From: Myxococcales bacterium
GTDB taxonomy: Bacteria > Myxococcota_A > UBA9160 > UBA4427
Direction: 5' to 3'
Length of the DNA stretch: 64,000 nt
Assembly: GCA_022563535.1 (NCBI GenBank)
Contig: JADFNE010000008.1
Coordinates: 1 to 64,000, forward strand
Positions within the stretch are counted from its first letter, which is position 1. Every line of letters starts with the position of its first letter. A program made the translations under genes and the position numbers. The notes beneath the pieces were generated by a model. That model was given only the letters and a program-made list of their open reading frames with translations, ran no database searches and was not told the DNA's origin. This document shows, in pieces, positions 1 through 45,358 of this stretch.

Positions 1-2
1 TG

Positions 3-287
3 AACGTCGAGCTTGCGGGCGCATCTCCGCAAACCGACACCCTGACTGCTCGGGGCTTCGACGGGCGAGATGGCAACGGCAACGGCTCCATTACGCTGGT
101 TGCAGGCGGTACCACGAATCGAACCACGTCACATCTGGAATTCCCGGCACTGGACGTGGTTACGTTGGTATTCGACGACGGCCTTTTGACGCCTTCGATG
201 GGTCCGGCCGGTCTTGCGACCGTCGCCACTTTGATCGCCCTGTCGGCAGGTTTCATGCTTCGAAGGCGGTTCGCTAGCGAGGCGTAG
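3..287 (+). CDS. C-terminal fragment of a secreted protein with C-terminal membrane anchor
   Basis: The first 94 codons in this frame are open from the window edge to a TAG stop. The visible part is Gly/Asn/Thr-rich, like an extracellular beta-rich domain. It ends in a three-part tail: a short motif TPSMGPAG, a hydrophobic helix of about 18 residues, then a basic cluster LRRRF. This arrangement resembles exosortase or rhombosortase-type C-terminal sorting signals, but the motif is not the classical PEP-CTERM, so surface anchoring is inference. The family of the full protein cannot be told because the N-terminus lies outside the window. A strong terminator hairpin follows 31 bases after the stop, so this is the end of a transcription unit. 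Confidence 0.7.
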   Translation, partial: NVELAGASPQTDTLTARGFDGRDGNGNGSITLVAGGTTNRTTSHLEFPALDVVTLVFDDGLLTPSMGPAGLATVATLIALSAGFMLRRRFASEA

Positions 288-317
288 ATCCCCGCAAAAC
301 GAATCACGCAGAAACAT

Positions 318-350
318 CAAGGGCACGGCCATAACACGGCCGTGCCCTTG
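318..350 (+). terminator. Rho-independent terminator
   Basis: A perfect 13-bp stem (CAAGGGCACGGCC pairing with GGCCGTGCCCTTG) encloses a 7-nt loop. It is followed by AACGTTTTGT, a short T-rich tract on the plus strand. It lies just downstream of the truncated secreted-protein gene. Confidence 0.85.
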
Positions 351-442
351 AACGTTTTGTGGCCCTGGCGATTCGCTGGGGGCCCAATGCTGTATCGTGT
401 CGAAGAGTAACCATCGATAGGGTGTCGGGGAGGTAGGTCAGA

Positions 443-922
443 ATGTTCGCGTCCAACGTGTCCAACGTGTCCAACGTAGTGAAGTCGCGGGTGCGGTTGA
501 GAGTGCGATGGAGATCCCTGGTTGGGCTCATCGCCGCATTCAGCATCGCCTCCGCTGGGTCACTGGCGGCGATGAACGCGGGCACTGATCAAGCAGAGGA
601 AGCTTCGGGCTCGGTTGTCGAGGTGGAGACCGAAAAAGTCACAGAAGCCACAGAAATCGAAGAAGTCACACAAGTCGAAGAAGTCACAGAAGTCGTGAAA
701 GTCGAACAGGTCGAAGAATTCGACTGGGAATTGGTGGGACTCTCGGTGTTCGACGCGGTTGTATTGCGACCGGTTGGTGTCGTGGCCACCCTGGGTGGCT
801 TCGCTCTTTTTGTCGTGTCAGTGCCCTTTGTGGCGCCTGCAGGGCGCATTGCAACAGCTTGGGACATCTTCGTATACGCATCCTACGACGATACCTTCGT
901 GCGGCCCCTCGGAGAGATCTAG
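443..922 (+). CDS. small membrane protein with Val/Glu-rich repeat linker
   Basis: 159-residue protein preceded by a good ribosome-binding site (GGGGAGG, about 10 bases before ATG). Residues 1-45 hold a basic stretch and a signal-like hydrophobic helix. Residues about 55-92 are a low-complexity acidic linker built from repeats of E-V-T-x-V-E. Residues about 97-159 form a hydrophobic domain with the pattern VLRPVG..ATLGG..LFVVSVPF and a terminal FVRPLGE. That last domain resembles a family of short proteins often mis-annotated as multidrug transporter, whose function is not known to me. The start also carries a 9-bp tandem repeat. Probably an inner-membrane or envelope protein; the role is unknown. 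Confidence 0.7.
   Translation: MFASNVSNVSNVVKSRVRLRVRWRSLVGLIAAFSIASAGSLAAMNAGTDQAEEASGSVVEVETEKVTEATEIEEVTQVEEVTEVVKVEQVEEFDWELVGLSVFDAVVLRPVGVVATLGGFALFVVSVPFVAPAGRIATAWDIFVYASYDDTFVRPLGEI
452..477 (+). repeat. 9-bp tandem repeat at start of CDS
   Basis: The unit TCCAACGTG occurs almost three times head to tail and encodes SNV-SNV-SNV near the N-terminus of the small membrane protein. Being a multiple of three it changes copy number without a frameshift. A second, more degenerate coding repeat based on GAAGTCACAGAAGTCGAA lies at about 627-718 in the same gene. Confidence 0.8.
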
Positions 923-943
923 TTCCACCCATCCATCGATGCC

Positions 944-3900
944 TCATTCACCCAGCAGGCGGTCGACCTGGATTCGGAGCCTTTCGAGTTGCGGATCGCG
1001 CGGAATCCTGAGCAGCACGCTTTTCGCCCGCCGCGCGAACTCCTGGCTCTTCGATCGGTTGGCGAGAAACCGAGGGTTGATTTTCGAGAGGGAATCGAGG
1101 GCTGCCAGGTGATCCCCGGCCAGGACGCTTGCTTGGGCTCGAAGCAACGTGCGGTCAGACCAGCGAGAAATCGAAATCGCCCGGTCGATGATCTCAACGG
1201 CCTCTTCCCCCAGTCGGGGTTCATCACCCGCGATGCGCCACTGCGTTTGCAGCCATGAGGCCTGGCCCGAGAGGGGGTGCTGGCGCGAAATCACAGCGAG
1301 CGCAGAGTCGAGGGTGCGCAATGTCTCCCAGTCTTCTGCGACCTCGGCGATCCAGCCGGAGACCACCGCCTGTTCTGCCCCGTAAAGGGGTAGCTGGACG
1401 AAATCCGCGGGATCGGCGCCGTGACCGATCGCGTACTTCGACAGAGCCAGTCTCGCCGAGCGTGCTTGCAGGTGCCGCGGATCTTCCTCCAACACCGATT
1501 CCAATGCTTTGCGCGCAGTCTCAGACTTGCGCACGGCTGCGTTCCTGATCGCGCCAGCAACCTCGATGTCCAGGGGGTTTTCCAGGCTCTCGGCGAGCTG
1601 CTCACTGCGCCCGTGCTTGAGCAGGCTCATCAGGTAGAAGACGTCCAGCCGATCGCGCGAAAGTGCAGGCAGCGGGTCGTGCAGACTGACCAGCTGATGG
1701 ATTCGCCCTCCGATGGCGCGGCCGAGAATCCTGGGAGTTCGAAGCTGGATGATGTTGTGATCGTCTCGATTGATCTCGGCACCCCGCGCAAGTTCACGCA
1801 CTCCTTTCTCGTCCAGGATCAGACTCGCAAGGACATCCTCGCGGGAATAGACGTTGAGGTGTCGAAAATCCTCAGGCGCTTTGGCAATCGCCTGGGCCGC
1901 GGAGTTTGGCATGTCGAAGGGAGCGTCCGAAGCGAGAAACAACACTCCAGCGCTGCCGGCCGGATTGTAAACCTGGACGTAATCGAAGACTTCGCCGAGG
2001 GTGGCGAGCAAAGTCCGAAACAGTGGCTCGTCGACAAAGTGCAGCCCAATCCACTGGACGAACACTCCTTCGGGCTCGAGGTGGTCTTGCGCGAGTTCGA
2101 AAAACTCTTGGGTATAGAGATGGGATGCGCCGGCCGACCAGGGGTGCGACGGCTGCGACACGATCGCGTCGAAGCGCTGGTCTGTCAGGATCAGGGCGTT
2201 GCGCGCGTCGTTCAGGTGCACGGTGATTCGGGGATCCTTCAAGGGATCCCGCCAGCGCAGATCGCCCAGGCTGCGATTGGCCTCGACCACTTCGGGCTCC
2301 AACTCGATCACGTCGATCTGCTCGATCAGCGACGGGACGGTCTCGAGCGCCAGGCCCCCCCCGAAGCCGACGACCAACAGCGAATTCGCCTCGGGCCGAG
2401 CCAGGCTGGGCAGCCCCCCCAGCCAGCGAGCCACCAGCCCCTGGTCCCGGGGTATTCCCGGTCGGGTTATTCGGCCTTCCGGGTTGCCGTTGGTGCGGAG
2501 GAACCATTGAACGGGAGATTCCAGCAGCAAAACCGTCGCGGCCCGTCCGACTCCCAGGTAGCGGATCGTGTCCTCCTGGTTGGCAGCACGAGCCAACGCC
2601 GAATAGCGCAGAATCTTCCAGGGTTGACCAGGGGGAAGCATCACCAATGCCACCAGACCGACCGCCCCGGCGATTTGCAGCCGCCGAGGGCGCCGATCGA
2701 CCAGGCCCCACGCGGTGGCGATCGCGAGCATCAGATTGAGGGCCACACAGGCGATCAGCGTGCCCGCATAGCCGAGGACGGGAATCACGAAGAAGCCCGC
2801 AGTGATTGCGCCCACAACCGATCCCAGGGTGTTCACAGCGTAAACCCGAGCGCTGGCGGGACCTGCGTCGGCTTCGTTCCTGGCCATCACGCGCACTGCA
2901 AATGGGAAGGTGGCACCGATCAGCGCAGCCGCTGGGAAGAGAGTCAGCGTCGATGCAACCCAGTCGACCAGCAGCTTGGAGTAGCCGCTGTGTCTCAAGC
3001 TCTCGGTCAGTGACGGGATCCAGTCCACTGCGGAAAAGGCCACCAGGGAGAGTCCAGCGATGCCAAGTTGAGCGATCGCAAAACCGCTCGCGGCTCGCTC
3101 GCGGGTTGTGCCCAGCCGTGAGGCCACCGCTGCGCCGAGGGCGATGCCAGCCAAGAAGCTGGCCAGCATGGTTGAAAATGCGTAGACGCTGCCGCCGAGC
3201 ATGTGCTCGAGCAGGCGCACCCAGAGGACTTCGTAGGTGAAGGAGACCATGCCGGAAACAAAAATCAGCGGAAGCATCCACGCCGTCTTGCCGGCAGCGG
3301 GCAGGTCGCGGGTCGGCAGAGCTCGATCGGTCGAAAGTCGGTTCCCTGCGCTGCGAGCCAGGGCCCAGGCGGCCAGAAACACCAGCCCATTGAATCCAGC
3401 CGCCACATAGATGGTCTGGCGCAGACCGAGGGTCGGGAGCAGCAGAAACGCCGCGACGATGGTTCCCACCACCGCCCCGGCCGTGTTGATCGAATAGAGC
3501 AGACCGATCTTGCTGCCGATCTCATCTTCAGTGTGCACCGAGTGGCGCACCAGCAGCGGTAGGGTCGCGCCCATCATGGCGGTCGGGACCATCAGAATTA
3601 CGAAGGAGCAAACCAGATAAAACAGGGCCGTCGAGAGTCCGCCAGTGCTCGAAAGTGCTGCCTGCCCTCCGAGCAGCGCCACATGCAGCGCCTGAGAGCC
3701 ATCAATCGCGAAGGGAACGCCCAGAGCGCTCAGCCCGACCCCCAACTCCAACAGGCCATAGGTGAGCAGCGGCCGGGTGATCCGGTGGGCAAAGCGGGCC
3801 GCAACAGCTGCTCCAGCCGCCAGGCCCGCCATGTAGGCTGCGAGCACCGTCGCCACGGCGAGATTCGAGGTCCCGAATACGAATGCGAATTCGCGGGTCC

Positions 3901-3982
3901 ACGCGGTCTGGTAGATCAGGCCCGCCAGTCCCGAAAGGAAAAAACAGACCAGGAGCAGGGAGAACGATACGTTGCGGCGCAT
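944..3982 (-). CDS. fused MFS-like / spermidine-synthase-like protein with C-terminal helical repeats (copy 1)
   Basis: 1012 residues in three parts. Residues 1 to about 460 are some 12 membrane helices of MFS type, starting with a LSGLAGLIYQTAWTREF-like first helix. Residues about 525-690 are a Rossmann-fold spermidine-synthase-like domain with a glycine-rich loop (VVGFGGGLALE), an acidic residue after strand 2 (DVIELEPE) and HLNDAR. The last 230 residues are alpha-helical and TPR-like. The catalytic Asp region of true spermidine synthases is replaced by SQPSHPW, so polyamine synthesis is unlikely; substrate unknown. It starts 12 bases after the stop of the DUF1232 gene and is probably co-transcribed with it. 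It is closely related to the protein encoded at 4749-7835. Confidence 0.85.
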   Translation of the reverse strand: MRRNVSFSLLLVCFFLSGLAGLIYQTAWTREFAFVFGTSNLAVATVLAAYMAGLAAGAAVAARFAHRITRPLLTYGLLELGVGLSALGVPFAIDGSQALHVALLGGQAALSSTGGLSTALFYLVCSFVILMVPTAMMGATLPLLVRHSVHTEDEIGSKIGLLYSINTAGAVVGTIVAAFLLLPTLGLRQTIYVAAGFNGLVFLAAWALARSAGNRLSTDRALPTRDLPAAGKTAWMLPLIFVSGMVSFTYEVLWVRLLEHMLGGSVYAFSTMLASFLAGIALGAAVASRLGTTRERAASGFAIAQLGIAGLSLVAFSAVDWIPSLTESLRHSGYSKLLVDWVASTLTLFPAAALIGATFPFAVRVMARNEADAGPASARVYAVNTLGSVVGAITAGFFVIPVLGYAGTLIACVALNLMLAIATAWGLVDRRPRRLQIAGAVGLVALVMLPPGQPWKILRYSALARAANQEDTIRYLGVGRAATVLLLESPVQWFLRTNGNPEGRITRPGIPRDQGLVARWLGGLPSLARPEANSLLVVGFGGGLALETVPSLIEQIDVIELEPEVVEANRSLGDLRWRDPLKDPRITVHLNDARNALILTDQRFDAIVSQPSHPWSAGASHLYTQEFFELAQDHLEPEGVFVQWIGLHFVDEPLFRTLLATLGEVFDYVQVYNPAGSAGVLFLASDAPFDMPNSAAQAIAKAPEDFRHLNVYSREDVLASLILDEKGVRELARGAEINRDDHNIIQLRTPRILGRAIGGRIHQLVSLHDPLPALSRDRLDVFYLMSLLKHGRSEQLAESLENPLDIEVAGAIRNAAVRKSETARKALESVLEEDPRHLQARSARLALSKYAIGHGADPADFVQLPLYGAEQAVVSGWIAEVAEDWETLRTLDSALAVISRQHPLSGQASWLQTQWRIAGDEPRLGEEAVEIIDRAISISRWSDRTLLRAQASVLAGDHLAALDSLSKINPRFLANRSKSQEFARRAKSVLLRIPRDPQLERLRIQVDRLLGE

Positions 3983-3994
3983 TCTTCGGGGTGT

Positions 3995-4576
3995 TTACCA
4001 GAGAGAGATCGGCGACTTGCGTGCGCGCGTCCGCTGAGATCGGTCTGAATCTGCGCGCCGCCGCCGGCGTCTCTGCATCCGCTGTTGAAGTTGTACCCGC
4101 CTCGCTTCCAGCCACTCCTCGCGGTTGGTGGGGCCGCCGTTGCCGGATTTGAGGATCATGTCCTTCTTCTCGCGCATACGGCAGAAATCTGAATAGGCTT
4201 CGATCTCGTGCTCGAGCTCTTGCACGACCAACTCGATCATGATCGCGTCATCGAGGAAACCGATCCCGGGGACGCAGTCGGGGATCAAATCCTTGGGGTC
4301 TGCGAAGTAGGCGAGGGCTCGCACGACTCGTTCGCGGTCCTCCCCTTCAAGGCGCCATTCCTTGTCGTTCACCATGTCGATCATCGAGCGCAGCTTTTCG
4401 GTGCGTTCGATTACGAATTCCGGGGCTTCGGTGGGGAGTTCGGCCAGTGCGGCGGTGGCGCGGGAAATCAATTCGTCGCTCGACTCGCTATCGGATCGCG
4501 ACTTGACCTCGGCCAAGATTCCTCGGAAGTAATCCAGATCCTGATCACTCAGTTCGAACGTGACTTTCAAGGGCAT
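3995..4576 (-). CDS. YkvA/DUF1232 family protein (copy 1)
   Basis: 193 residues. The centre carries the DUF1232 signature (residues about 88-120: ALAYFADPKDLIPD, then PGIGFLDDAIMIELV), typical of the YkvA family, which is membrane-associated in some members and has no proven function. The N-terminus (VTFELSDQDLDYFRG) and the C-terminal KSPISLW recur in the paralogue at 7925-8485. It is the first gene of a two-gene minus-strand unit with the MFS/SpdSyn fusion downstream. A GGGCTACGGTAGCCC hairpin (4612-4626) lies in the upstream leader. Confidence 0.85.
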   Translation of the reverse strand: MPLKVTFELSDQDLDYFRGILAEVKSRSDSESSDELISRATAALAELPTEAPEFVIERTEKLRSMIDMVNDKEWRLEGEDRERVVRALAYFADPKDLIPDCVPGIGFLDDAIMIELVVQELEHEIEAYSDFCRMREKKDMILKSGNGGPTNREEWLEARRVQLQQRMQRRRRRRADSDRSQRTRARKSPISLW

Positions 4577-4748
4577 GGCGGACGGATCTCCAATTTCGGG
4601 TTTTCGACCGTGGGCTACGGTAGCCCGGCTTTGAGTCTATCAGAGGGTCCACCATAGCGCCGTCGAACGCCACAGTGCAAAACCCGGCTTCGCGGGCTCG
4701 AGCGAAATCGATTGGAGAGTTTCAGGAGTCGGGTGAAACCTGCAGTTC

Positions 4749-7700
4749 CTAGTGGGCCGCAGGCATCGCATCGCTCTGGGCAGCGCCAGGGACTTCAGTT
4801 CTAAAACGAGTTTGCAAAATTCTATCGCGCCACTCGGCGTCTTTGCCTTCAGCGACAATGCCCCGCAATTTCAATCGGACGTGATTGCGCAGTCCCGGGT
4901 CCTTTTTTCGAGTTCCCACGAGGTTGATGCGCGCCAGGGATGCGATCGCAGCCCGCGGGTCGCCCATCGCCTCCGCCGCTCGGGAGCGCAGCAGCAACAG
5001 CCGATTCGATCGCGTAGCGCGATAGGCGACGTCGATGATCTCGATCGCATTCCGGATGTGGATGGAGTCTCCGGTTTCGATTCGCCAGTTGGCTCGGAGA
5101 AATACGGCTTCTTGGTAGAGCGCGTTGGTGGGGGAAATGGCTGCAAGTTGCTTTTCCAGAGCCTGGACTCCCTGCCAATCGCTTTTTCCACTGCGCAGCA
5201 TCGCGTCAATGAGATCTTGTTCCGCGGGGGTGGGGTCGATGTCGGGCAGTAGTTGATCGACCTCGACCCTTGTCGAGGAAGCGAAGCTGTACCGGAGCAA
5301 TTGCGCTCGAACCCTGGCATCACCCGGGTACTTCTTCAAGTATTGAATGAGTCGGGGGCGACCCGCCGATCCCCCAATTCCCAACAGTCGAAGAGTCTCG
5401 CGATCCTTCGGTTTATCGAGGCGCTTGGCCAGTTCGAAAGCGCGTTCAACCTGTTGTTGGGACTTCAGCGCCAGCGCCAACTCGACCCCATCGAGCCTGC
5501 CCTCCGCGACAAAACGTCGGAGTGGATCGTGGGTGCGAAAGGCACTGTTGACTTTGCGCTTGCTTTGGGCTTTTTCGTCTTTCGACAGTCGGCCAATCTT
5601 CGGAGACCGCATTTGGAGCAGGTTTCGATCGTCCGAAGTCAGCTCGGCATTCTGAGCAAACGCGACACTTGCTTCGGAATCCAACAGCAGATAGGTGGCG
5701 AAGTCCTCTTGCGTGTAGAGCCCCGTGCGAATCGAGATGTCGGGGTCATGCACACGAAGCGCGTCGAAATCGAGCAAGTCGGGCAGAGGAGAGTTCGAGG
5801 CGACAAAGAGAATATTTCGATAGACATGAACGTATTCGAAGTGGTCGAGCAGGGTTCCGACCATCGTCTTCAACAGGTCTACATCGACGAAGGCCCTGCC
5901 GATCCATTGAACGAGGACCCCCTGCTCGTTGAGGTGATCGGACGCCAGTCCGAAAAATTCTCCCGTATAGAGATGCGCCGCGCCCCCAGTCCACGGATGC
6001 GATGCTTGCGCTGCGATGACGTCGAACTTCTGATCACTCAGAAAGAGCGCACTGCGCGCGTCGTTGATGTGCACATGTACGCGCGGGTCTGCGAATGGGT
6101 CGATTGCTCGCCGATCTCCCAGCCAGCGATTGGCCGCGACGACTTCCTCCTCGAGTTCGATGACGTCGATTCGTTCGATGTTGAGGGGGATCTGCTCGAC
6201 CGTCACGCCTCCGCCCAGCCCGACGACCAACATCGAGCGCGCCTCCGGTCGCAACAGGGGCCCAATGGTTCCGAGCATGACTGCGGTCGCCAATTTTGTT
6301 GGAGGTTCTTCTGGCGTGGAGACCATCGACTCCGGCAGGCCGTTTGTTGAAAGCCTCCACTCGGTGGGTGAGGTCCGGGTCAGCAGGACCGTCGCGCTGC
6401 GGCCAACCTCGAAGAAGTCGACATGTCCGGCGATGGGGGCATTGCTGCGACCCAGCGGGGTAGTGCGCAGGACCTGCCAAGGCTCTCCGGGCAAGAGCAA
6501 CCCGAGCAACACGGCCGCCGCGGCGGGGATGGCCAGGAGAATTTTTTTCTGTCCAGCGAAGAACAGAGCGGCGGCCCCAATTCCCAGGTTGGCGGTGATC
6601 CCGAGCGCAATCGTGTCGCGGAAGCCGAGCTCAGGCAGCAGGATGAAAGCGGTTCCGATCGAACCCGCGATCGCCCCAACCGTGTTCCAGCTGTAGACCC
6701 GGGCGCTCGCCGGGCCGGCATCGTCGGCGTCGCGAGCCAGGATTCGCACCGCGAAGGGAAAGGTTGCGCCAATGCAGATTGCTGCGGGCAACAAGACCAT
6801 CATCGCGAGTGTGACATCGACGACAAGATGACTCGCGCCGCCCAACAGCTGGATCACCGTTCTGGCGTAATCAATCGCTGCGAAAGCGGCGCCGGTCAGC
6901 AGTGCGATACCCACCTGGGCCCAGGCGAAGAGCTTCAGTGCGCGCACCGGTGAGTTCGCGAGCCGACTCGCGCCGGCGGAGCCGATGGCGATTCCGAGCA
7001 GGAAGCTCGCCAGCATGGTTGTAAATGCATAGATGCTTCCGCCGAGCAGTTGGGAGAGCAACCTCGCCCAGAGAACCTCATAGACGAACGAGAGCGCACC
7101 GGAAAACAAGATCAGAGGCAGAATGAAGTGCATCCGGCGCGGCGCAGATCGACTCGAGACCTGTGAATCTTCGCGGCTCGGCTCCGGCGCCACCGCGACC
7201 GCTGCGCTGCGGACGAGATACGCGACGATCAGAAACACGAGCACATTGGCCGCAACCGCAACGTAGACGGTTCCGCGAATACCCAGGGTGGGCAGAAGTG
7301 CAAAGGCCGCGGTGAGCGTACCCGCTACGGCGCCCGCAGTATTGATGGCGTACAACGCGCCGATGCGTGGTCCAATCTCCGCGTCGTTGCTCACTACCTG
7401 GCGAGACAGGAGTGGCAGCGTGGCACCCATGAAGGAAGTGGGAATCATGACGATGACGAAGGTTGTCACCAGATAGAAAGTAGAGATTGCCAGGGGGTTC
7501 GTTTCGCCAAATGCACTCTGTTGCCCAAACAGCGCGATCAGCAGTTGGGTCGCGCCCCAAAGGGCCACGGGTACCAGGAGCGCTGCGATTCCGATGCCCA
7601 ATTCGAGGAACGCGTAAAGCGCCAGAGGGCGATGGGTGCTGACCGCGATGCGGCCGCCGACAGCAGCACCTCCGGCAAGTCCCGCCATGTAGGCAGCCAG

Positions 7701-7835
7701 TACCGTCGCGACCGCGAGTTCGGAGGTGCCGAAGACGAAAGAAAACTCGCGGGTCCAGGCCGTTTCGTAGATCAGGGCCGCGAAACCAGAAAGGAAGAAG
7801 CAGGCCGCAACGATGATGAAGGAGCGATCTCTCAT
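4749..7835 (-). CDS. fused MFS-like / spermidine-synthase-like protein with C-terminal helical repeats (copy 2)
   Basis: 1028 residues with the same architecture as copy 1: a polytopic N-terminal half of about 12 helices, a spermidine-synthase-like domain from about residue 530 (VVGLGGGVTVE, DVIELEEE, HINDAR), and a helical repeat tail. The first helix (FLSGFAALIYETAWTREF) is nearly the same as in copy 1, so the two arose by duplication. The position of the synthase catalytic Asp is occupied by AQASHPW. It lies 89 bases downstream of the second DUF1232 gene on the same strand. The role is unknown; an inner-membrane protein with a cytosolic nucleotide- or SAM-binding-like domain is the most that can be said. 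Confidence 0.85.
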   Translation of the reverse strand: MRDRSFIIVAACFFLSGFAALIYETAWTREFSFVFGTSELAVATVLAAYMAGLAGGAAVGGRIAVSTHRPLALYAFLELGIGIAALLVPVALWGATQLLIALFGQQSAFGETNPLAISTFYLVTTFVIVMIPTSFMGATLPLLSRQVVSNDAEIGPRIGALYAINTAGAVAGTLTAAFALLPTLGIRGTVYVAVAANVLVFLIVAYLVRSAAVAVAPEPSREDSQVSSRSAPRRMHFILPLILFSGALSFVYEVLWARLLSQLLGGSIYAFTTMLASFLLGIAIGSAGASRLANSPVRALKLFAWAQVGIALLTGAAFAAIDYARTVIQLLGGASHLVVDVTLAMMVLLPAAICIGATFPFAVRILARDADDAGPASARVYSWNTVGAIAGSIGTAFILLPELGFRDTIALGITANLGIGAAALFFAGQKKILLAIPAAAAVLLGLLLPGEPWQVLRTTPLGRSNAPIAGHVDFFEVGRSATVLLTRTSPTEWRLSTNGLPESMVSTPEEPPTKLATAVMLGTIGPLLRPEARSMLVVGLGGGVTVEQIPLNIERIDVIELEEEVVAANRWLGDRRAIDPFADPRVHVHINDARSALFLSDQKFDVIAAQASHPWTGGAAHLYTGEFFGLASDHLNEQGVLVQWIGRAFVDVDLLKTMVGTLLDHFEYVHVYRNILFVASNSPLPDLLDFDALRVHDPDISIRTGLYTQEDFATYLLLDSEASVAFAQNAELTSDDRNLLQMRSPKIGRLSKDEKAQSKRKVNSAFRTHDPLRRFVAEGRLDGVELALALKSQQQVERAFELAKRLDKPKDRETLRLLGIGGSAGRPRLIQYLKKYPGDARVRAQLLRYSFASSTRVEVDQLLPDIDPTPAEQDLIDAMLRSGKSDWQGVQALEKQLAAISPTNALYQEAVFLRANWRIETGDSIHIRNAIEIIDVAYRATRSNRLLLLRSRAAEAMGDPRAAIASLARINLVGTRKKDPGLRNHVRLKLRGIVAEGKDAEWRDRILQTRFRTEVPGAAQSDAMPAAH

Positions 7836-7924
7836 CCCGCAGCGACGATCATGATTCGCCCCAAGAAACGACTGCAGTCATGAATGGGAGCACGGGCGAT
7901 GTCGAATACCTGCATTTGCAAACG

Positions 7925-8485
7925 TTACCAAAGTCTGAATGGCGATTTGATCGAAGTTGTGCGCATGCGCTCTGTATCGCTTCGTCGTCGTCGTCTCATT
8001 CTGCGCTGAAGCGATTGCCGCCGCACTTCGAGTTTTTCGTCGTCGATCTTCTTGCCGCGTTGGCCTCGAAATGCGCAGAAGTCATCATAGGACTTGATCT
8101 CGTGCTTGAGTTCTCGGGCGACCAACTCGATCATGATCGCATCGTCGATGTATCCGATGCCGGGAATGCGATCGGGGATCAAGTCCTCTGGATCCGCGAA
8201 ATATGCCAGTGCATCCAACACCCGGGCCCGGTCACGACCTTCGAGGCGCCACTCGGTATCTCGTACCATCTCGACCAGTTTTTCGAGGGTCTTGAGGCGA
8301 ATGCGCACGAAGTCGGGCGACTCGGCCTCGATGGCCCTCTGTACCAGGGTCGAGGCGCTCTTGATCAGCTGTGCTTCGTCTTGATCACTGCGATTCGTGC
8401 GCGTGCGCTTGAGGCGTTCGCGAAAATACTTGATGTCGCGTTTCGTGAGTTCGAAGCTGACTTTGATCGAGGATTCGGTTGTCAT
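7925..8485 (-). CDS. YkvA/DUF1232 family protein (copy 2)
   Basis: 186 residues when started at the internal ATG at 8485, which aligns with the paralogue at 3995-4576; an ATG at 8590 would add 35 unlike residues and overlap the divergent methyltransferase start. The DUF1232 core is ALAYFADPEDLIPD followed by PGIGYIDDAIMIELV. The N-terminal KVSFELTKRDIKYF and the final KSPFRLW match copy 1. It pairs with the fusion protein at 4749-7835, so the order [DUF1232, MFS/SpdSyn] is conserved in both modules. The upstream region is shared with the divergent methyltransferase gene. Confidence 0.85.
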   Translation of the reverse strand: MTTESSIKVSFELTKRDIKYFRERLKRTRTNRSDQDEAQLIKSASTLVQRAIEAESPDFVRIRLKTLEKLVEMVRDTEWRLEGRDRARVLDALAYFADPEDLIPDRIPGIGYIDDAIMIELVARELKHEIKSYDDFCAFRGQRGKKIDDEKLEVRRQSLQRRMRRRRRSDTERMRTTSIKSPFRLW

Positions 8486-8515
8486 GAATGCTTGCGCCCT
8501 CCCAGGGCTTTGTGT

Positions 8516-8545
8516 TTTATGGGGCCAGACTCGGCCGCGTATAAT
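8516..8545 (+). promoter_or_regulatory. putative promoter of the methyltransferase gene
   Basis: A perfect TATAAT box lies at 8540-8545, 34 bases before the ATG. The -35 region is poor (TTTATG/TTATGG at 17-18 bp), so only the -10 is well supported. A GAAGGAAGAG ribosome-binding stretch follows between the box and the start. Confidence 0.45.
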
Positions 8546-8579
8546 AGCCAGATCAATTTGTAATAGAAGGAAGAGTTCC

Positions 8580-9365
8580 ATGAGCGTCAAACGAAGTGTC
8601 GAACAACAGTTTGGCCCCGCGGCCGAGGACTACGCATCCTTCAACTACCACGCGGCGGGGCCGGATCTCCCAGCCATGCTCGCGGCGGGAGCGCTTTCCG
8701 GCGAAGAGCGCGTGCTGGATATCGGGTCGGGGGCAGGGCACACAGCATTGTTGTTCGCGACCCAGGCCCGCGAGGTCGTGGCGTCGGATCCAACCCCGGC
8801 AATGCTCGACCAGGGCAGGCGACTGGCCGCGGAGCGAGGCCTTGCCAACGTATCGTTCGAGCTGACATCGGCAGAATCGATGCCGTTCCCGGACGCATCC
8901 TTTGACCGCGTGACTTCACGCCAAAGCGCGCACCATTACGCCAGCGTTCCCGCGGCCCTTTGCGAAGTGGCGCGGGTCCTCAAACCCGGGGGACGCTTCG
9001 TTCTGATCGACTCCTTCTCGCCCGACGACGACGAGTTCGACAGCTTCCTGAATACCATCGAGTTGCTGCGAGACTCCAGCCACGTCCGGGACTACCGCGT
9101 CTCCGAGTGGACCGAGATGTTCGCCAAGGTTGGCTTTGAGCTGCAGGAACTGGAAAGCTGGGACATCCCGCTCGAATTTGAAGATTGGGTGACTCGCTCG
9201 AGAACTCCGGACGACGACGTTGTGGCACTGCGCTCGTGTTTTGCCGAAGCTTCCGACCGAGTGCGAAAGCGCTTCAGCGTGCACGGTGAATGCGACTGGT
9301 CCGTACCCATAGGGCTCGTGGTGGGGAGTCGGGCCGACATCCCGCATTCGCGGTCGAGGCGATAG
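8580..9365 (+). CDS. class I SAM-dependent methyltransferase (UbiE-like)
   Basis: 261 residues from the ATG at 8580, which has a purine-rich ribosome-binding site (GAAGGAAGAG) and a TATAAT box upstream. Methyltransferase motif I is DIGSGAG at residues 47-53. An acidic residue D70 ends strand 2. SAESMPFPDASFD gives motif II-III, and ARVLKPGGRFVLID is the usual post-motif of Methyltransf_11/UbiE proteins. The frame is open further upstream, but the extension overlaps the divergent DUF1232 gene and lacks homology-like character. The acceptor substrate cannot be told. The gene stands alone; a palindromic element begins two bases after its stop codon. Confidence 0.9.
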   Translation: MSVKRSVEQQFGPAAEDYASFNYHAAGPDLPAMLAAGALSGEERVLDIGSGAGHTALLFATQAREVVASDPTPAMLDQGRRLAAERGLANVSFELTSAESMPFPDASFDRVTSRQSAHHYASVPAALCEVARVLKPGGRFVLIDSFSPDDDEFDSFLNTIELLRDSSHVRDYRVSEWTEMFAKVGFELQELESWDIPLEFEDWVTRSRTPDDDVVALRSCFAEASDRVRKRFSVHGECDWSVPIGLVVGSRADIPHSRSRR

Positions 9366-9366
9366 C

Positions 9367-9530
9367 TAGGAGCCTGACCCAAGACTCGTCGCGACGCCCA
9401 TGCGCCGATGCATCGCCGCTGGCTGCGTTGCGTAACCTTGCTGTAGCCAGCTACAGCTGCGATTCCGCGCCTTGCCAGCGGCGCGCCTCGACGCCTGGGC
9501 TTCCCACGAGAGTCTTGGGTCAGGCTCCTA
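9367..9530. repeat. 164-nt imperfect palindromic (REP/BIME-like) element
   Basis: Perfect 21-nt inverted arms at 9367-9387 and 9510-9530 share the core CCTGACCCAAGAC and its complement. Inside them the arms continue as an imperfect stem including CGCCGCTGGC / GCCAGCGGCG. At the centre is an 8-bp hairpin GCTGTAGC-CA-GCTACAGC (9440-9457). The whole can fold into one long hairpin. It fills the gap between the convergent methyltransferase and PilZ genes. The left arm begins TAGGAG, which contains the GGAG tetranucleotide known from some REP elements. A half copy of one arm occurs at 20425-20445, so it is a dispersed repeat. Confidence 0.8.
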
Positions 9531-9553
9531 CTTCTGGAAGCGGCGGAAGGTGG

Positions 9554-10279
9554 CTACAGAAGTTTCGCGAAGGTGGGATCGCCCAGCGCATTGTGAAGTA
9601 TTTCGGGAAACGACTCCTGGACAAATCGCACCCCACACTGCGGGACATCAGGGCTGTCCTCCCATTGACAGGACCAGACGATCTCCGCATCCAAAACGGC
9701 GCTACCCCCCGGTAGATCGCAAACCTCGATCTCGATTCGCGTCCCTGTTGCGGGGGGAGTGGATGCGACGACAAGACAGCCGCCCCGGGAAAGGTCTTTG
9801 ATGTTGACGCGACTCCATTCGTCGTCGCTTCCGGCGACACGCAGGCGAGCGCGACAGGTCACCGGGCAGCGCAGATACATTCTCGATTCAATTGCGTTCT
9901 CCCACGCAGATCCCCCGTCCAGGATGTCGATAATCGCTTCCTGGAATGGCCCCTTTAGCGGCGGACTCATGCGCATGATTTCTGCGCTGCCATCGGAGCC
10001 GATCCTGCTTCGCAGCACAGGCCACACGCTGCGAATGGCGAAGAGCTTGTTCATGCCTTCGGTCTTGCCACGGATCAACGCAGCCAGGTCGACCAACCCA
10101 ACTGCCGGAGGGTTTTGCAGGCACAGGAGCAGGAACAATTTGGGATCGCTGACGAAGCGAAATTCGAGTGAATGATCTTCGGCTATTTCGCAAAACTGCA
10201 GCGCGTAGAGTCGTTCCAGTTTCTCATCACACAGGATCAGAATCAGGCTCGAATCCTTGTCGATTTGATCGTCTTCCAC
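9554..10279 (-). CDS. PilZ-domain protein with receiver-like N-terminal region
   Basis: 241 residues when started at the GTG at 10279, which has GGAGAG four bases upstream; ATG codons further upstream (10336, 10390) give Arg/Ser-rich extensions without a clear ribosome-binding site. Residues about 10-115 look like an alpha/beta response-regulator-like fold but without a clear phospho-acceptor. Residues about 135-225 are a PilZ domain with the D162-x-S-x-G-G motif (DLSRGGC) and an Arg-rich segment just before it (RCPVTCRARLR). PilZ domains commonly bind cyclic di-GMP. It probably acts in surface or motility control, but no partner gene is adjacent. Confidence 0.75.
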   Translation of the reverse strand: MEDDQIDKDSSLILILCDEKLERLYALQFCEIAEDHSLEFRFVSDPKLFLLLCLQNPPAVGLVDLAALIRGKTEGMNKLFAIRSVWPVLRSRIGSDGSAEIMRMSPPLKGPFQEAIIDILDGGSAWENAIESRMYLRCPVTCRARLRVAGSDDEWSRVNIKDLSRGGCLVVASTPPATGTRIEIEVCDLPGGSAVLDAEIVWSCQWEDSPDVPQCGVRFVQESFPEILHNALGDPTFAKLL

Positions 10280-10454: not shown

Positions 10455-12608
10455 TTGTCGACTCGCAACTGCAGTATCCGCACTGCTCTTATTTTTTCCC
10501 TCTGTTTTTCGGTTGCGGGTTTGCTGATAGGGTGCCGCGAAGAGTCGGATCCATCACCTGTTGCACCGGTCGCGCCGCCGACGCGAGAGTCGCCAAATCT
10601 GGTGATCATTACCCTCGACACCACCAGGGCTGACGCTCTGGGTGCCTACGGTCAGTCATTCGCGACCTCGCCAAGTTTCGACCGGATGGCCAAAGAAGGC
10701 ACGCTGTTCGAAGACGTCATGACTTCGAGCCCCGAAACCGTTCCCGCCCACGCCACCATCTTCACCGGAAAATATCCGTTCGCTCACGGAGTGAGGGGCA
10801 ACGCGGGCTACGTCCTTTCAGATGATCATCTCACCCTGGCCGAGGTCCTGAAATCCGCTGGCTATGTGACCGGGGCAGAGGTCGCGGCGATCGTCATGCG
10901 GGAAGAAACCCAGATCAGTCAGGGCTACTCGACGGTGCGAGGTCCCCACAGTGAAGGGGCGCGATTGAAGTCTCTGTTTCGCGAACGCGACGGGGAGATC
11001 AAGGCCGAGGTCACCATGGTGCGGGATGGTTCCGACATCACCGACAGCGGCATCCGATTCGTGCGCCAGCATCGAAATGACAAGTTCTTCCTTTGGCTTC
11101 ACTACTTTGACGCACACGCACCCTACCAGGCACCTCCTCCATTCAGCGTAGAGATATCCGATAGTCCCTACCACGCGGAAGTGGCATACCAAGATTCTCA
11201 GATGGGACGCTTCATAGAGGAATTGGAGAAACTCGGGTTGCGCGACAACACGCTCGTGATCGTGACGGCCGATCACGGCGAAGGTCTGCTCGAGCACGGC
11301 GAACGCACGCATAGCTACTTTATCTACGACACAACGATGCGCATTCCCATGATTTTCTGGGGCCTTCCGGAAGTGTCCGGCGGCAAGCGGATCGAGTCCC
11401 TCGTGCGCAGCGTGGACATTGCCCCGACTGCTCTCGATCTCCTCAGGCTCTATCCGCTGGACGACATCGACGGGGTGTCGCTTGCACCGTTGCTGGGCGA
11501 AGCGCATTCGGCTCTCGATCTCACGGCGTATGGAGAAGCGAGCCGCGTCGTGTCGACGTTCAATATTTCGCCACTGCGTTTCGTTCGGGAGGGGCGCTGG
11601 AAGTACATTCACAAGGTCAATCCCGAACTCTACGATGTCAAAACAGACCCCGATGAACTCAATAATCGGATCGCCGCCGAGCCCGATGTTGCGGCACGAC
11701 TCCACGCGAAACTCGAATTGATTCTCGGCGCAGCGCCTGCAAAGAGCATGGCTTCCGTCGATGAACTGACGCACCAGGTGGAATTGCAGCTTCGGGCCCT
11801 GGGCTATGTCGAGGTCGCGGGTGGCAAGTCGTTCGCGAGTGAAGGCGAATCCCTCGAAGTATTTGGCGAGGATCCGACGACAAAAACTGAAGACATGGAT
11901 CTCATCGCTTTTGCAGTTGGGGCCATCGTCGCAAAGAAGTTCGAAGCTGCACTCGAGTGGGCCGAGCCGTTTTTGCGGCGAAATCCCGACAGTTCTCTGG
12001 CGACGAACCTTCTGAGCGAGAGTTATGAAGGTGCCGAGCGATGGACTGACGCAATTCCCCTGCTGCGTCGAAGCCTGGAGTTCAATCCCCAGGATCTCCG
12101 TATAAAAGAAAGGATGGTGACCGCACTCGCGGCCGAAGGCAGGAACCAGGATGCGATCGCCGAATTATTCATCCTGAATCTGGAGCGTGTATGTCACGAA
12201 GAGACGGTCAGCATGCTCAATCGATTGCTTCACGTCGAGCGGAGATTCGAGGAGCAACGGGACGTGATCAGTGCTGCCGTTTCGGACTGTCCTGAGATTT
12301 CGAGCAACGTCAACAACTATGCCTGGCTCCTCGCCACAATTCCCGACCCGGGCTTGCGCGACGGTGCCAAGGCAGTTGGATTGATACGGCAGGCAATCGC
12401 GAACCTCGGAAAGCGCGACCCCGCTTATCTCGACACCTTGGCCGCTGCCCTGGCGGAACAGGGTCGATTCGAAGAGGCGATCCAGATCGAGACAGAGGTC
12501 ATCGAGAAATTGAAGGCGGCCGGTGCATCGAGCGCGGTCGTGCGAGATTTTGAAAATAATCGCGACAGCTATCGATCCGAATTGCCAATGAGAGATCCAC
12601 CGGTCTGA
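10455..12608 (+). CDS. sulfatase-like lipoprotein with C-terminal TPR domain
   Basis: 717 residues, with a TTG start 12 bases after a TAGGAGA ribosome-binding site. A lipoprotein signal peptide ends at LIGC (Cys27). The alkaline-phosphatase/sulfatase fold follows: metal-site LDTTRAD (Asp55), a nucleophile loop SPETVPAHATIFTG and TADHGEGLLEHG. The nucleophile position holds Thr95 instead of the Cys or Ser that is converted to formylglycine in true sulfatases, so arylsulfatase activity is doubtful; a Thr-dependent phospho-transferase or hydrolase is an alternative. After an ALGYVE motif at about residue 455 the last 250 residues form TPR-like helices. It is likely periplasmic and membrane-tethered. 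Two related proteins lie at 47939-50971. Confidence 0.85.
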   Translation: MSTRNCSIRTALIFSLCFSVAGLLIGCREESDPSPVAPVAPPTRESPNLVIITLDTTRADALGAYGQSFATSPSFDRMAKEGTLFEDVMTSSPETVPAHATIFTGKYPFAHGVRGNAGYVLSDDHLTLAEVLKSAGYVTGAEVAAIVMREETQISQGYSTVRGPHSEGARLKSLFRERDGEIKAEVTMVRDGSDITDSGIRFVRQHRNDKFFLWLHYFDAHAPYQAPPPFSVEISDSPYHAEVAYQDSQMGRFIEELEKLGLRDNTLVIVTADHGEGLLEHGERTHSYFIYDTTMRIPMIFWGLPEVSGGKRIESLVRSVDIAPTALDLLRLYPLDDIDGVSLAPLLGEAHSALDLTAYGEASRVVSTFNISPLRFVREGRWKYIHKVNPELYDVKTDPDELNNRIAAEPDVAARLHAKLELILGAAPAKSMASVDELTHQVELQLRALGYVEVAGGKSFASEGESLEVFGEDPTTKTEDMDLIAFAVGAIVAKKFEAALEWAEPFLRRNPDSSLATNLLSESYEGAERWTDAIPLLRRSLEFNPQDLRIKERMVTALAAEGRNQDAIAELFILNLERVCHEETVSMLNRLLHVERRFEEQRDVISAAVSDCPEISSNVNNYAWLLATIPDPGLRDGAKAVGLIRQAIANLGKRDPAYLDTLAAALAEQGRFEEAIQIETEVIEKLKAAGASSAVVRDFENNRDSYRSELPMRDPPV

Positions 12609-42334: not shown

Positions 42335-45300
42335 ATGACCAGACTTGTAGCGCTAGTCCTCACCGCGATGACGGGTTTTAGTGGTTTGGTCTACGAAGTC
42401 GCCTGGCAGAAGTATCTGGCGACCCTCCTGGGTTCGCAAAGCGAGGCGACTGCCGCAGTCTTGGCGATTTTTCTCGGCGGCTTGTCAATTGGCTATTGGC
42501 TGTTCGGGTTGTTGACCCGCCACCTCATCGTCGCCGCAAGAAAAGCAAAGCAAGCTCCACGGCTGTTGTTTGTCTACGGGATTTTGGAAACCAGCATTGG
42601 GATCTATATCATCGCCTTTCCGTGGCTTTTTGAACTGATTCAAGCTCTCTCCTTCGCGATCCCGCACGGTGCGAGCGGATTCGGATTCGCGATCGATGTT
42701 CTGCTCACCATCGTGCTCATTGGTCCGGCTTCGGTGCTGATGGGAGGCACCATACCGATCCTCACCCAGGCGCTCGCCAAGAGTCTCGAGGATGCCACTC
42801 GCTTTCATGCCTTTGTCTATGCGTTCAATACCGCGGGCGCTTTCGTCGGCGCCCTTGCCGCGGGCTTCTACCTGATTCCGACCCTCGGGCTCATCAATGT
42901 CATGTTGTCCATGGGGGTAATCAACCTGAGTGCCGGTGCTGTGTTCATGCTGATCGGGCGCACAGGAGGCCAAGTTGTTTCACTAGCGGTCCCCGCGCCG
43001 GAAACGGATCCGGCAGATCGAACGACTGGCGCCAGTCCCAACGAGGGTCTCCGCACCTACCTTGCGGTCTCCATGTTGACCGGCTTCTCCATGATGGCGA
43101 TTCAAACGACAGCCATTCGGATTGCGGGTCTTTCATTTGGATCGTCGCAATTCACATTTTCCATGGTGGTTGCCGTTTTCGTTCTTTGCATTGCCCTTGG
43201 GAGCTTCGCGGTCTCTTCACTCAATCAAATTCCCAAGTGGCTCGTCGTGAGCAACCAATGGGTACTTTGCGGTCTGTTTGCGCTGCTGTATTTCCAGGCA
43301 GCTTACGCGCCCTACTGGGTCCATGTGCTTCGTTCGATCTTTCGAGACTCCGAACTGGCATTTATTCCGTACTACGCAGCCGGCTTTCTTTCTGTATTGC
43401 TGATGATCGGCGTTCCCGTCCTCCTTTCGGGGGCGGTTCTTCCATTGCTGTTTCACATGGTGCGGCGCGAGGCCGAGCATCTGGGAGATGCTGCTGGCAA
43501 CCTGTACAGCTGGAATACCATTGGCTCGCTCGTGGGAGCGCTGCTCGGGGGGTACGTGCTCTTCTTCTGGTTCGACATGCATCAGATCTACCGCATGTCG
43601 GTCGCGGCACTCGGTATTGCGGCGGTCTTGCTCACGGTCCATGTCTATGGCTGGCGCCCACTCTCCGGCGCATTGCTGATCGGCTGCCTGCTCATCGGAC
43701 TTGTCGCTACGCCAAAATGGGATGATCGCATTCTCTACTTGGGTCTGTTCCGAGCCCGTGAGGCCCTACCTGGATCAGGTATGGGGGTTGCAAAGTTCAT
43801 CGAACTCAATCCATATATCGATCAGATCAACTCCGTATTTCGCACCGACGATCCCATTGGTTCGGTCGAAGCGAGAGAAGTAAAACTCGAAAGTGGCGGA
43901 TCGTCTCTCTCGATTTACGTGAACGGAAAATCTGACGGAAACTCCTTCAAGGATTACCCGACCATGAGCCTTCTCGCGTCGCTCCCTGCGTTGTTTGCAG
44001 AAAAAGCGGAACGCGGCTTTATCATCGGCTGGGGAACCGGCGTAACGGCCGGTGAGCTTGCTTCCCTGAAAACGATGGAGCACATAGATGTCGCTGAGAT
44101 TTCTCCTGGAGTGATTCAGGCCGCGCCGTATTTTGACTTCGCCTCCATGAACGCATCGAACAATCCCAAGATTCATGTGATCCAAAGTGATGCGTATCGC
44201 GCATTGATGCGGTCCGAAGGAAGCTATGACGTCATCATTTCGGAGCCGAGCAATCCCTGGGTGACAGGTGTTGAGATGCTATTCAGCCGAGATTTTCTTG
44301 AAGTGGCCAAAGGCAGGTTGAGCCCAGGTGGGGTCTATTGCCAGTGGCTTCAAGAATACGAGACCAACACAGAGGCCATTGAGATTGTCTTTCGCACCTA
44401 TGCAGCTGTTTTTGATCATGTCGCGGTCTGGCGCAGCAAATCACCAGACTTGTTACTGATCGGTTTCAATGACAAGGGCAACGCCCTTGATCACTATCGC
44501 CTGGAAGAACGGGCACGCAGACCCGATTTCAAAGCCTCTCTCGAGCGAGCGGGTATTCATAGTTTCCCCGAACTTCTCGCTCATGAGGTCCTTCCCCTTG
44601 GCGTGATTCACGCGATCGCCGATGAGGGACCCATTCAGACCCTGTACCACCCGATCCTCAATTACGTCGCGGGGCGCGCCTTCTTTCGAGGTCAGACTGG
44701 CCAGCTCCCCTTCAGCGGTCACCGAAACGCAGCCGAAATTGGGCGCAAGAACTCGCTATTGCGCCTCTACGCTCGACGCTACGGGGGAAGCGTTCCCGAT
44801 GAGGATCGTGGCCGCATGATCACCGAAGCGTGCCGGGCGCACGGCATCATCTGTACTTCGATGCTGGCCGAGTGGATGCATGAGGCGCCGGATTCCGGCG
44901 CAATGCGACGAACCCGCCAGCGGGTAGAGGAACTCATTGAGATCCAGCGCGGGCAAATCAGCGAAAAGAACACTGAGATGCCTATCTACAAGAACGCCAA
45001 CGTGATGAAGACTCTCTTCGAGACAGACGCAACATCGATCATCGCGCCAGACAGCCGACCCTACAGAAAACTGGTTTCGCTCGCGCGCGCGAAGCGGGCG
45101 AGCAGGGAGTTTGAAAAATATTATTTCCACGCAAGTTCGTTCAGCGCGGAGGCACTTGATTCCGTGTGGTCGAGATGCACCGAAACTATGCCCACTCGCG
45201 AATCGTGTCGCGCGCGCACCGACGTCGGCGACGACATTGCTCGAATCGAACAATGTCTGAAGACCCCAAGCCAGAATCGCGGTTGCCTGGAGGGCCGAAG

Positions 45301-45358
45301 ACAAGCGGCATTGATCTCTGGGTTGCAGAGCGAAAAAGAAGTCTCGCGCTTGCGCTGA
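42335..45358 (+). CDS. fused MFS-like / spermidine-synthase-like protein (copy 3, divergent)
   Basis: 1007 residues with the same layout as the pair at 944-7835 but only distantly similar. An N-terminal half of about 12-14 helices begins GFSGLVYEVAWQKYLATLLG. A spermidine-synthase-like domain follows from about residue 560 (FIIGWGTGVTAGEL, HIDVAEISPGV, VIQSDAY) with SEPSNPW in place of the catalytic Asp motif, and a charged helical tail ends in a Cys-bearing segment. No DUF1232 gene is next to it. The last 300 codons look slightly less G+C-rich than neighbours. The role is unknown. Confidence 0.85.
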   Translation: MTRLVALVLTAMTGFSGLVYEVAWQKYLATLLGSQSEATAAVLAIFLGGLSIGYWLFGLLTRHLIVAARKAKQAPRLLFVYGILETSIGIYIIAFPWLFELIQALSFAIPHGASGFGFAIDVLLTIVLIGPASVLMGGTIPILTQALAKSLEDATRFHAFVYAFNTAGAFVGALAAGFYLIPTLGLINVMLSMGVINLSAGAVFMLIGRTGGQVVSLAVPAPETDPADRTTGASPNEGLRTYLAVSMLTGFSMMAIQTTAIRIAGLSFGSSQFTFSMVVAVFVLCIALGSFAVSSLNQIPKWLVVSNQWVLCGLFALLYFQAAYAPYWVHVLRSIFRDSELAFIPYYAAGFLSVLLMIGVPVLLSGAVLPLLFHMVRREAEHLGDAAGNLYSWNTIGSLVGALLGGYVLFFWFDMHQIYRMSVAALGIAAVLLTVHVYGWRPLSGALLIGCLLIGLVATPKWDDRILYLGLFRAREALPGSGMGVAKFIELNPYIDQINSVFRTDDPIGSVEAREVKLESGGSSLSIYVNGKSDGNSFKDYPTMSLLASLPALFAEKAERGFIIGWGTGVTAGELASLKTMEHIDVAEISPGVIQAAPYFDFASMNASNNPKIHVIQSDAYRALMRSEGSYDVIISEPSNPWVTGVEMLFSRDFLEVAKGRLSPGGVYCQWLQEYETNTEAIEIVFRTYAAVFDHVAVWRSKSPDLLLIGFNDKGNALDHYRLEERARRPDFKASLERAGIHSFPELLAHEVLPLGVIHAIADEGPIQTLYHPILNYVAGRAFFRGQTGQLPFSGHRNAAEIGRKNSLLRLYARRYGGSVPDEDRGRMITEACRAHGIICTSMLAEWMHEAPDSGAMRRTRQRVEELIEIQRGQISEKNTEMPIYKNANVMKTLFETDATSIIAPDSRPYRKLVSLARAKRASREFEKYYFHASSFSAEALDSVWSRCTETMPTRESCRARTDVGDDIARIEQCLKTPSQNRGCLEGRRQAALISGLQSEKEVSRLR

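Follow-up and report, generated by a model that had tools for sequence, protein, structure and literature searches.

A conserved DUF1232–MFS/spermidine-synthase-like gene pair of narrow distribution, found twice at one locus of a Myxococcales genome

At the start of a contig from a Myxococcales bacterium, two small genes for DUF1232 proteins alternate with two large genes for proteins in which an MFS-like transporter is fused to a spermidine-synthase-like domain. This raises the question of whether a two-gene module was duplicated in place, and whether the two kinds of protein work together. We analyzed a window comprising the first 64,000 nucleotides of contig C8, which is 96 kb long and belongs to a 4.63-Mb draft genome with a completeness of 97.9%. 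Below, D denotes the DUF1232 protein and F the fused MFS/spermidine-synthase-like protein with its helical tail. We find that the pairing of D and F is genuine and conserved but narrowly distributed, and that the locus shows no tandem duplication, with a function that we can only infer.

Layout of the locus and properties of its proteins

The list of open reading frames places the genes on the minus strand in the transcription order D2, F2, D1, F1, that is, as two D-F pairs arranged head to tail (Table 1). Both D proteins pass the PF06803 gathering cut-off (23 bits), and both F proteins pass the cut-off of NF037959, the NCBIfam family of fused MFS/spermidine synthases (40 bits), so that the four genes and two same-order pairs described in the first-pass annotation are confirmed by open reading frames and profile scores alike. 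The ATG start of D2 is backed by congener loci (L048, L050, and L053), while an upstream TTG, which would extend the gene to position 8590, is a less likely start. A promoter scan of positions 1 to 9600 returned no sigma-70-like sites and is uninformative.

Table 1. Features of the D-F locus (positions in the window)
Feature	Position	Strand	Description
c43	443..922	+	Neighbor of F1 (cluster c43), conserved beside F1 in congeners (L049, L051, L052)
F1	944..3982	-	1012 aa; ORF, NF037959 136.7 bits, PF01564, PF07690; MFS-like (~12 TM) + spermidine-synthase-like (~residues 472-690) + C-terminal helical/TPR-like region
D1-F1 gap	3983..3994	-	12 bp, operon-like spacing
D1	3995..4576	-	193 aa; DUF1232, all-helical; PF06803 39.9 bits
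F2-D1 gap	4577..4748	-	172 bp, junction of both pairs; ~10-17 kb of other genes here in congeners
F2	4749..7835	-	1028 aa; fused MFS/spermidine-synthase-like; NF037959 128.2 bits
D2-F2 gap	7836..7924	-	89 bp
D2	7925..8485	-	186 aa from ATG; DUF1232; PF06803 39.6 bits

Several features surround the four genes. The c43 gene encodes a Glu/Val/Thr-rich segment with 9-bp-spaced repeats at positions 631 to 720, and it adjoins, here as in the congeners, a gene at 3 to 287 that ends in a hydrophobic-plus-arginine tail. A perfect 21-bp inverted repeat (GAGTCTTGGGTCAGGCTCCTA) occupies positions 9367 to 9387 and 9510 to 9530, next to D2, on the side where the relatives have a different gene order. With 2 mismatches allowed, its 20-mer has 13 copies in the genome, many of them closely spaced and inverted (reversed control, 0 copies), which resembles a repeat of the REP type or of a mobile element. 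Further along, a gene at 10455 to 12608 encodes a sulfatase-type protein with a TPR region at its C-terminus.

D1 and D2 are 46% identical over 192 aa and share with other members the core DxIPDxxPxxGxxDDAI (alignment A1) and a conserved, Arg-rich C-terminal helix, followed in many members by a KSPxxLW tail (D1 ends in KSPISLW). We found no hydrophobic segments in D, and the AlphaFold2 model of D1 consists of seven helices (pLDDT 84, pTM 0.79); D is a soluble family, predicted to be all-helical, that also exists independently of F. Neither the sequence search nor the fold search of the PDB gave a match for D (all E values of the fold search above 0.7), and the literature searched held no characterized DUF1232 member, with mentions of DUF1232 confined to work on plant RING proteins and those of YkvA to passing remarks. 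A second type of DUF1232 paralogue (L012:6397-6957, L088-L107) lies order-wide between genes for a GCS2 glutamate-cysteine ligase and a response regulator; the genes that follow encode an uncharacterized protein of 551 aa, a thioredoxin-reductase-like protein, and a PAS/HisKA/receiver protein.

F consists of about 12 hydrophobic segments, an aminopropyltransferase-fold domain, and a helical tail; F1 and F2 are 45% identical over 990 aa, and F1 was modeled by AlphaFold2 with a pLDDT of 87. Compared with 1uir and other structures, the synthase domain matches the aminopropyltransferase fold (Foldseek E of ~1e-8, target TM score of ~0.7). F1 and F2 nevertheless score 55.5 and 59.7 of the 249.55 bits set for the SpeE equivalog TIGR00417, and 68.6 and 73 of the 260 bits set for the spermidine synthase model PRK00811. 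Residues E88, D158, and D161 of the Thermus thermophilus enzyme (1uir) correspond to G542, Q610, and H613 in F1, and the catalytic DxxDP motif reads QPSHP or QASHP in all 17 aligned clade members (QPSHPW in F1 and F2), so that neither the DxxDP aspartates nor the acid of the GGGD/EG loop is present in F. The acids replaced in F are catalytic or substrate binding in aminopropyltransferases. The nucleotide-pocket acids E560 and D592 (F1 numbering) are invariant (alignment A2). As judged from these alignments, F keeps the aminopropyltransferase fold and the nucleotide-pocket acids while having lost the catalytic and amine-binding ones, and without the catalytic acids F is unlikely to make spermidine; on catalytic residues, we reject polyamine synthesis by F. 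An outgroup paralogue (L013) has DPIHP at the QPSHP position. A third, distant MFS/spermidine-synthase fusion is encoded in the window at 42335 to 45358 (~30% identity to F1), and several more distant F paralogues are found on other contigs of the genome. A defense-system reading finds no support in PADLOC, which returned no complete set of genes, with a 36-bit match of the F1 synthase domain to mad2 as the only hit and none for D1, D2, or F2.

Separate histories of the two pairs

The similarity between D1 and D2 and between F1 and F2 is far beyond chance but marks an old split; at the DNA level, the alignment of the two modules gives matches that are 64 to 73% identical. The three other genomes of the genus (G001, G002, and G003) all keep both D-F pairs in the same orientation, with the pairs lying 14 to 20 kb apart: at 18.7 and 36.6 kb on contig C67 of G001, at 17.7 and 37.9 kb on C48 of G002, and at 26.1 and 12.1 kb on C28 of G003. 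The orthology of the D1-F1 pair is fixed by the c43 neighbor, which is kept beside F1 in the congeners. In the F tree, the window's F1 groups with its G001 counterpart, while the F1s of G002 and G003 fall outside this group, and since the separated order is seen on both sides of this split within the genus, it is the likelier ancestral state.

F1 and F2 are not sister genes. F1 is closer to the F proteins of G058, a member of another family (58% identity), and of G006 (53%) than to F2 (47% in the same search). A single clade made up of the F1s and F2s of the genus is rejected (AU test, P = 0.012 under a mixture model and P = 0.0019 under LG+G4), as is a clade of F2 with the F of g10, the second genus in which the pair occurs (P = 0.0004). 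The D tree, built on ~185 columns, is weak, with one clade of D1 and D2 being borderline (P = 0.056) and a clade of D1, D2, and the g10 D being rejected (P = 0.004).

In the congeners, D1-F1 follows an acyltransferase gene and D2-F2 follows a TonB2-type operon (L048, L050, and L053). At the window locus, no TonB2-type gene set (DUF3450, TtpC-like ExbB, ExbB, ExbD, TonB, and TPR) lies beside D1 or D2. The window's genome holds three DUF3450-ExbB-TonB operons on contigs C28, C36, and C45 (DUF3450 identity of 54 to 61%), and for the acyltransferase only a 32% match and a short fragment. With operon and acyltransferase missing from the locus, the genes on both sides of D2-F2 appear to have been lost or moved while the pair stayed, an absence that is read from a draft assembly and that fits loss rather than proving it.

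The tandem appearance is therefore a secondary juxtaposition, in which two separate loci with different histories were brought together in this genome once the genes lying between them in relatives had been lost or moved, and a recent tandem duplication is rejected by the spacing in the congeners and by the trees. The tandem duplication of the module proposed in the first-pass annotation is accordingly set aside. Its further expectation, that a wrong guess would show in duplicates occurring separately with unrelated neighbors, is borne out as far as the tandem arrangement goes. It is not borne out for the two pairs, which are physically linked and kept as pairs throughout the genus.

Reach of the pairing and the TonB2-type operon beside D

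We fetched 54 D loci from the class, not counting the window, some of them on contigs too short to tell what lies beside D. F is found directly beside D and on the same strand at 13 of these loci, all in two genera of one family, with D followed by F in g1, the genus of the window (six loci), and F followed by D in g10 (seven loci: L060, L069, L071, L073, and L075-L077). Elsewhere in the class, no F directly adjoins D among these loci; in G035, F lies 5.6 kb from D with a TonB operon in between. Among 80 D homologues from public collections, mostly gammaproteobacterial, F lies beside D in a single case (L139, from UBA4427 of the same family). The conserved pairing suggested earlier thus holds within the genus (G001 to G003) and recurs in a second one with the two genes swapped in order, but a search for DUF1232 genes beside such fusions does not extend it beyond two genera of one family. 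In Gammaproteobacteria, the neighbors of D vary by lineage, with no F, no TonB2 operon, and no conserved partner. After the F-D pair of g10 (L076:9332-13908 and other loci), we observe FabH-, FabF-, and lipid-desaturase-like genes, and a link of that pair to membrane lipids is possible.

Across 61 genomes, 29 encode both proteins, 5 only D, 15 only F, and 12 neither. Since there are genomes with D and without F, as well as the reverse, neither protein needs the other, and the two do not form an obligate two-part system. Three distinct F lineages nevertheless stand beside a same-strand D, which points to a functional tie, barring repeated loss of a single ancient pair. Such a single ancient pairing with many losses is the less parsimonious history, although it keeps some likelihood because the D tree is weak.

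With respect to the other neighbors of D, the TonB2-type operon, of a kind that energizes uptake through the outer membrane, is the most widespread in the order, whereas F stands beside D in only two genera. By Pfam, this operon encodes DUF3450/TtpB, a long TtpC-like ExbB, ExbB, ExbD, TonB, and a TPR/TtpD protein. D directly adjoins its genes at 13 of the 54 loci, in three families, in several orientations, and in nine genera by hand count (g1, for D2 only, g3, g5, g18, g31, g32, g33, g37, and g40). At loci where D lies downstream of the operon and shares its strand, 18 to ~355 bp separate the two (18 to 100 bp among L050, L053, L057, L083, and L084). In g10, the operon is found ~7 kb from D, with F in between. 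The literature that we searched holds no report of a link between D and TonB2-type operons. In the congener operon beside D2 (L048:3746-6313), the genes are unusually arranged, in that ExbD does not precede TonB but comes behind the TPR gene.

Weighing the readings and comparison with known systems

The reading that we prefer, at roughly even odds (a probability of about 0.5), is that D is an optional membrane-side accessory, that F is a transporter or sensor making no polyamine, and that the two pairs go back to distinct loci, each with its own history. D would lie at the cytosolic face of the inner membrane by way of its Arg-rich C-terminal helix and would dock, as an accessory or regulator, on polytopic membrane complexes. 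In two genera the complex would be F; elsewhere it may be TtpC/ExbB. The proposed docking is argued from charge and gene order, the fold of D having no solved match. F would transport or sense a ligand, and its cytosolic domain may bind SAM or a related nucleotide, or may modify a substrate other than putrescine. More speculatively, this type of D could be an undescribed membrane-side accessory of TtpBCD complexes that was reused by a noncatalytic F fusion in two genera, in which case one small adaptor would serve two kinds of envelope machine.

A related and possible, if less probable, explanation takes D as an accessory of TonB2-type (TtpBCD) energization, with F recruited in two genera to the same uptake or envelope process. 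The adjoining operon in nine genera, at times a short distance upstream of D on the same strand, and the nearby operon of g10 agree with this, but the remaining genera of the class and, L139 excepted, the 80 public homologues have no such operon near D, and the window's own D genes do without one. It is rather doubtful that D and F are simply unrelated genes that came together by chance and stayed unmoved in two genera. The side-by-side arrangement in just two genera could be neutral, each gene also occurs alone, and gammaproteobacterial D neighbors vary widely; yet chance has to account for three F lineages beside a same-strand D and for two pairs that survived the rearrangements around them in the genus, and a rough estimate, which assumes ~2 F-clade genes among ~4500, predicts far less than one such event.

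Duplication of the D-F module in place in this lineage, followed by divergence of proteins that work together, is unlikely. Order, strand, and the 45 to 46% identity of both members would suit it, but not the distance between the pairs in three congeners, the failure of F1 and F2 to form one clade, or the closer kinship of F1 to the F proteins of G058 and G006. Less likely still, to the point of being very improbable, is that F combines an active aminopropyltransferase with a polyamine transporter in one protein, with D regulating polyamine synthesis or export: the fold and the NCBIfam family of F suggest it, whereas the low SpeE equivalog scores (55 to 60 of 249 bits) and the catalytic acids missing from every aligned clade member speak against it.

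DUF1232 is a widespread family without a known role, and the link to the TonB2 operon, together with the F pairing, provides a first testable context for both. Furthermore, MFS/spermidine-synthase fusions often take their name from an activity that is at odds with their sequence, which calls for caution with spermidine synthase annotations.

When set beside known families, D1 and D2 carry the D-x-I-P-D...G-x-x-D-D core of DUF1232 (PF06803, YkvA-like) but, at 186 to 193 aa, are longer than the 37-residue model, with an extra conserved N-terminal part, the Arg-rich helix, and the KSPxxLW tail. F1 and F2 resemble the NF037959 family in having a transmembrane region and a spermidine-synthase-like domain and differ from it in QPSHPW in place of DxxDP and in an extra C-terminal helical region of ~250 aa. 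The Vibrio TonB2 system comprises TtpB2 (DUF3450), TtpC2, and TtpD2 (TPR), with TtpB2 and TtpD2 being essential for iron transport (PMC6957404). The operon adjoining D in nine genera has the same gene content, although the Vibrio operon has six genes and no DUF1232 (PMC6957404), and the D genes of the window are not beside such an operon. A survey of PspA-CesT/Tir operons described a fusion of a 7TM transporter-like and a spermine/spermidine-synthase-like protein, for which its authors suggested a part in membrane dynamics (PMC11237479). The partners there are PspA, CesT/Tir, DUF350, and DUF4178, and DUF1232 is not named in that work (PMC11237479). Like F, that fusion is a membrane-fused spermidine-synthase-like protein encoded with membrane-linked partners, and despite the different partners, the membrane-dynamics proposal would agree in general terms with the idea that D and F act at the membrane.
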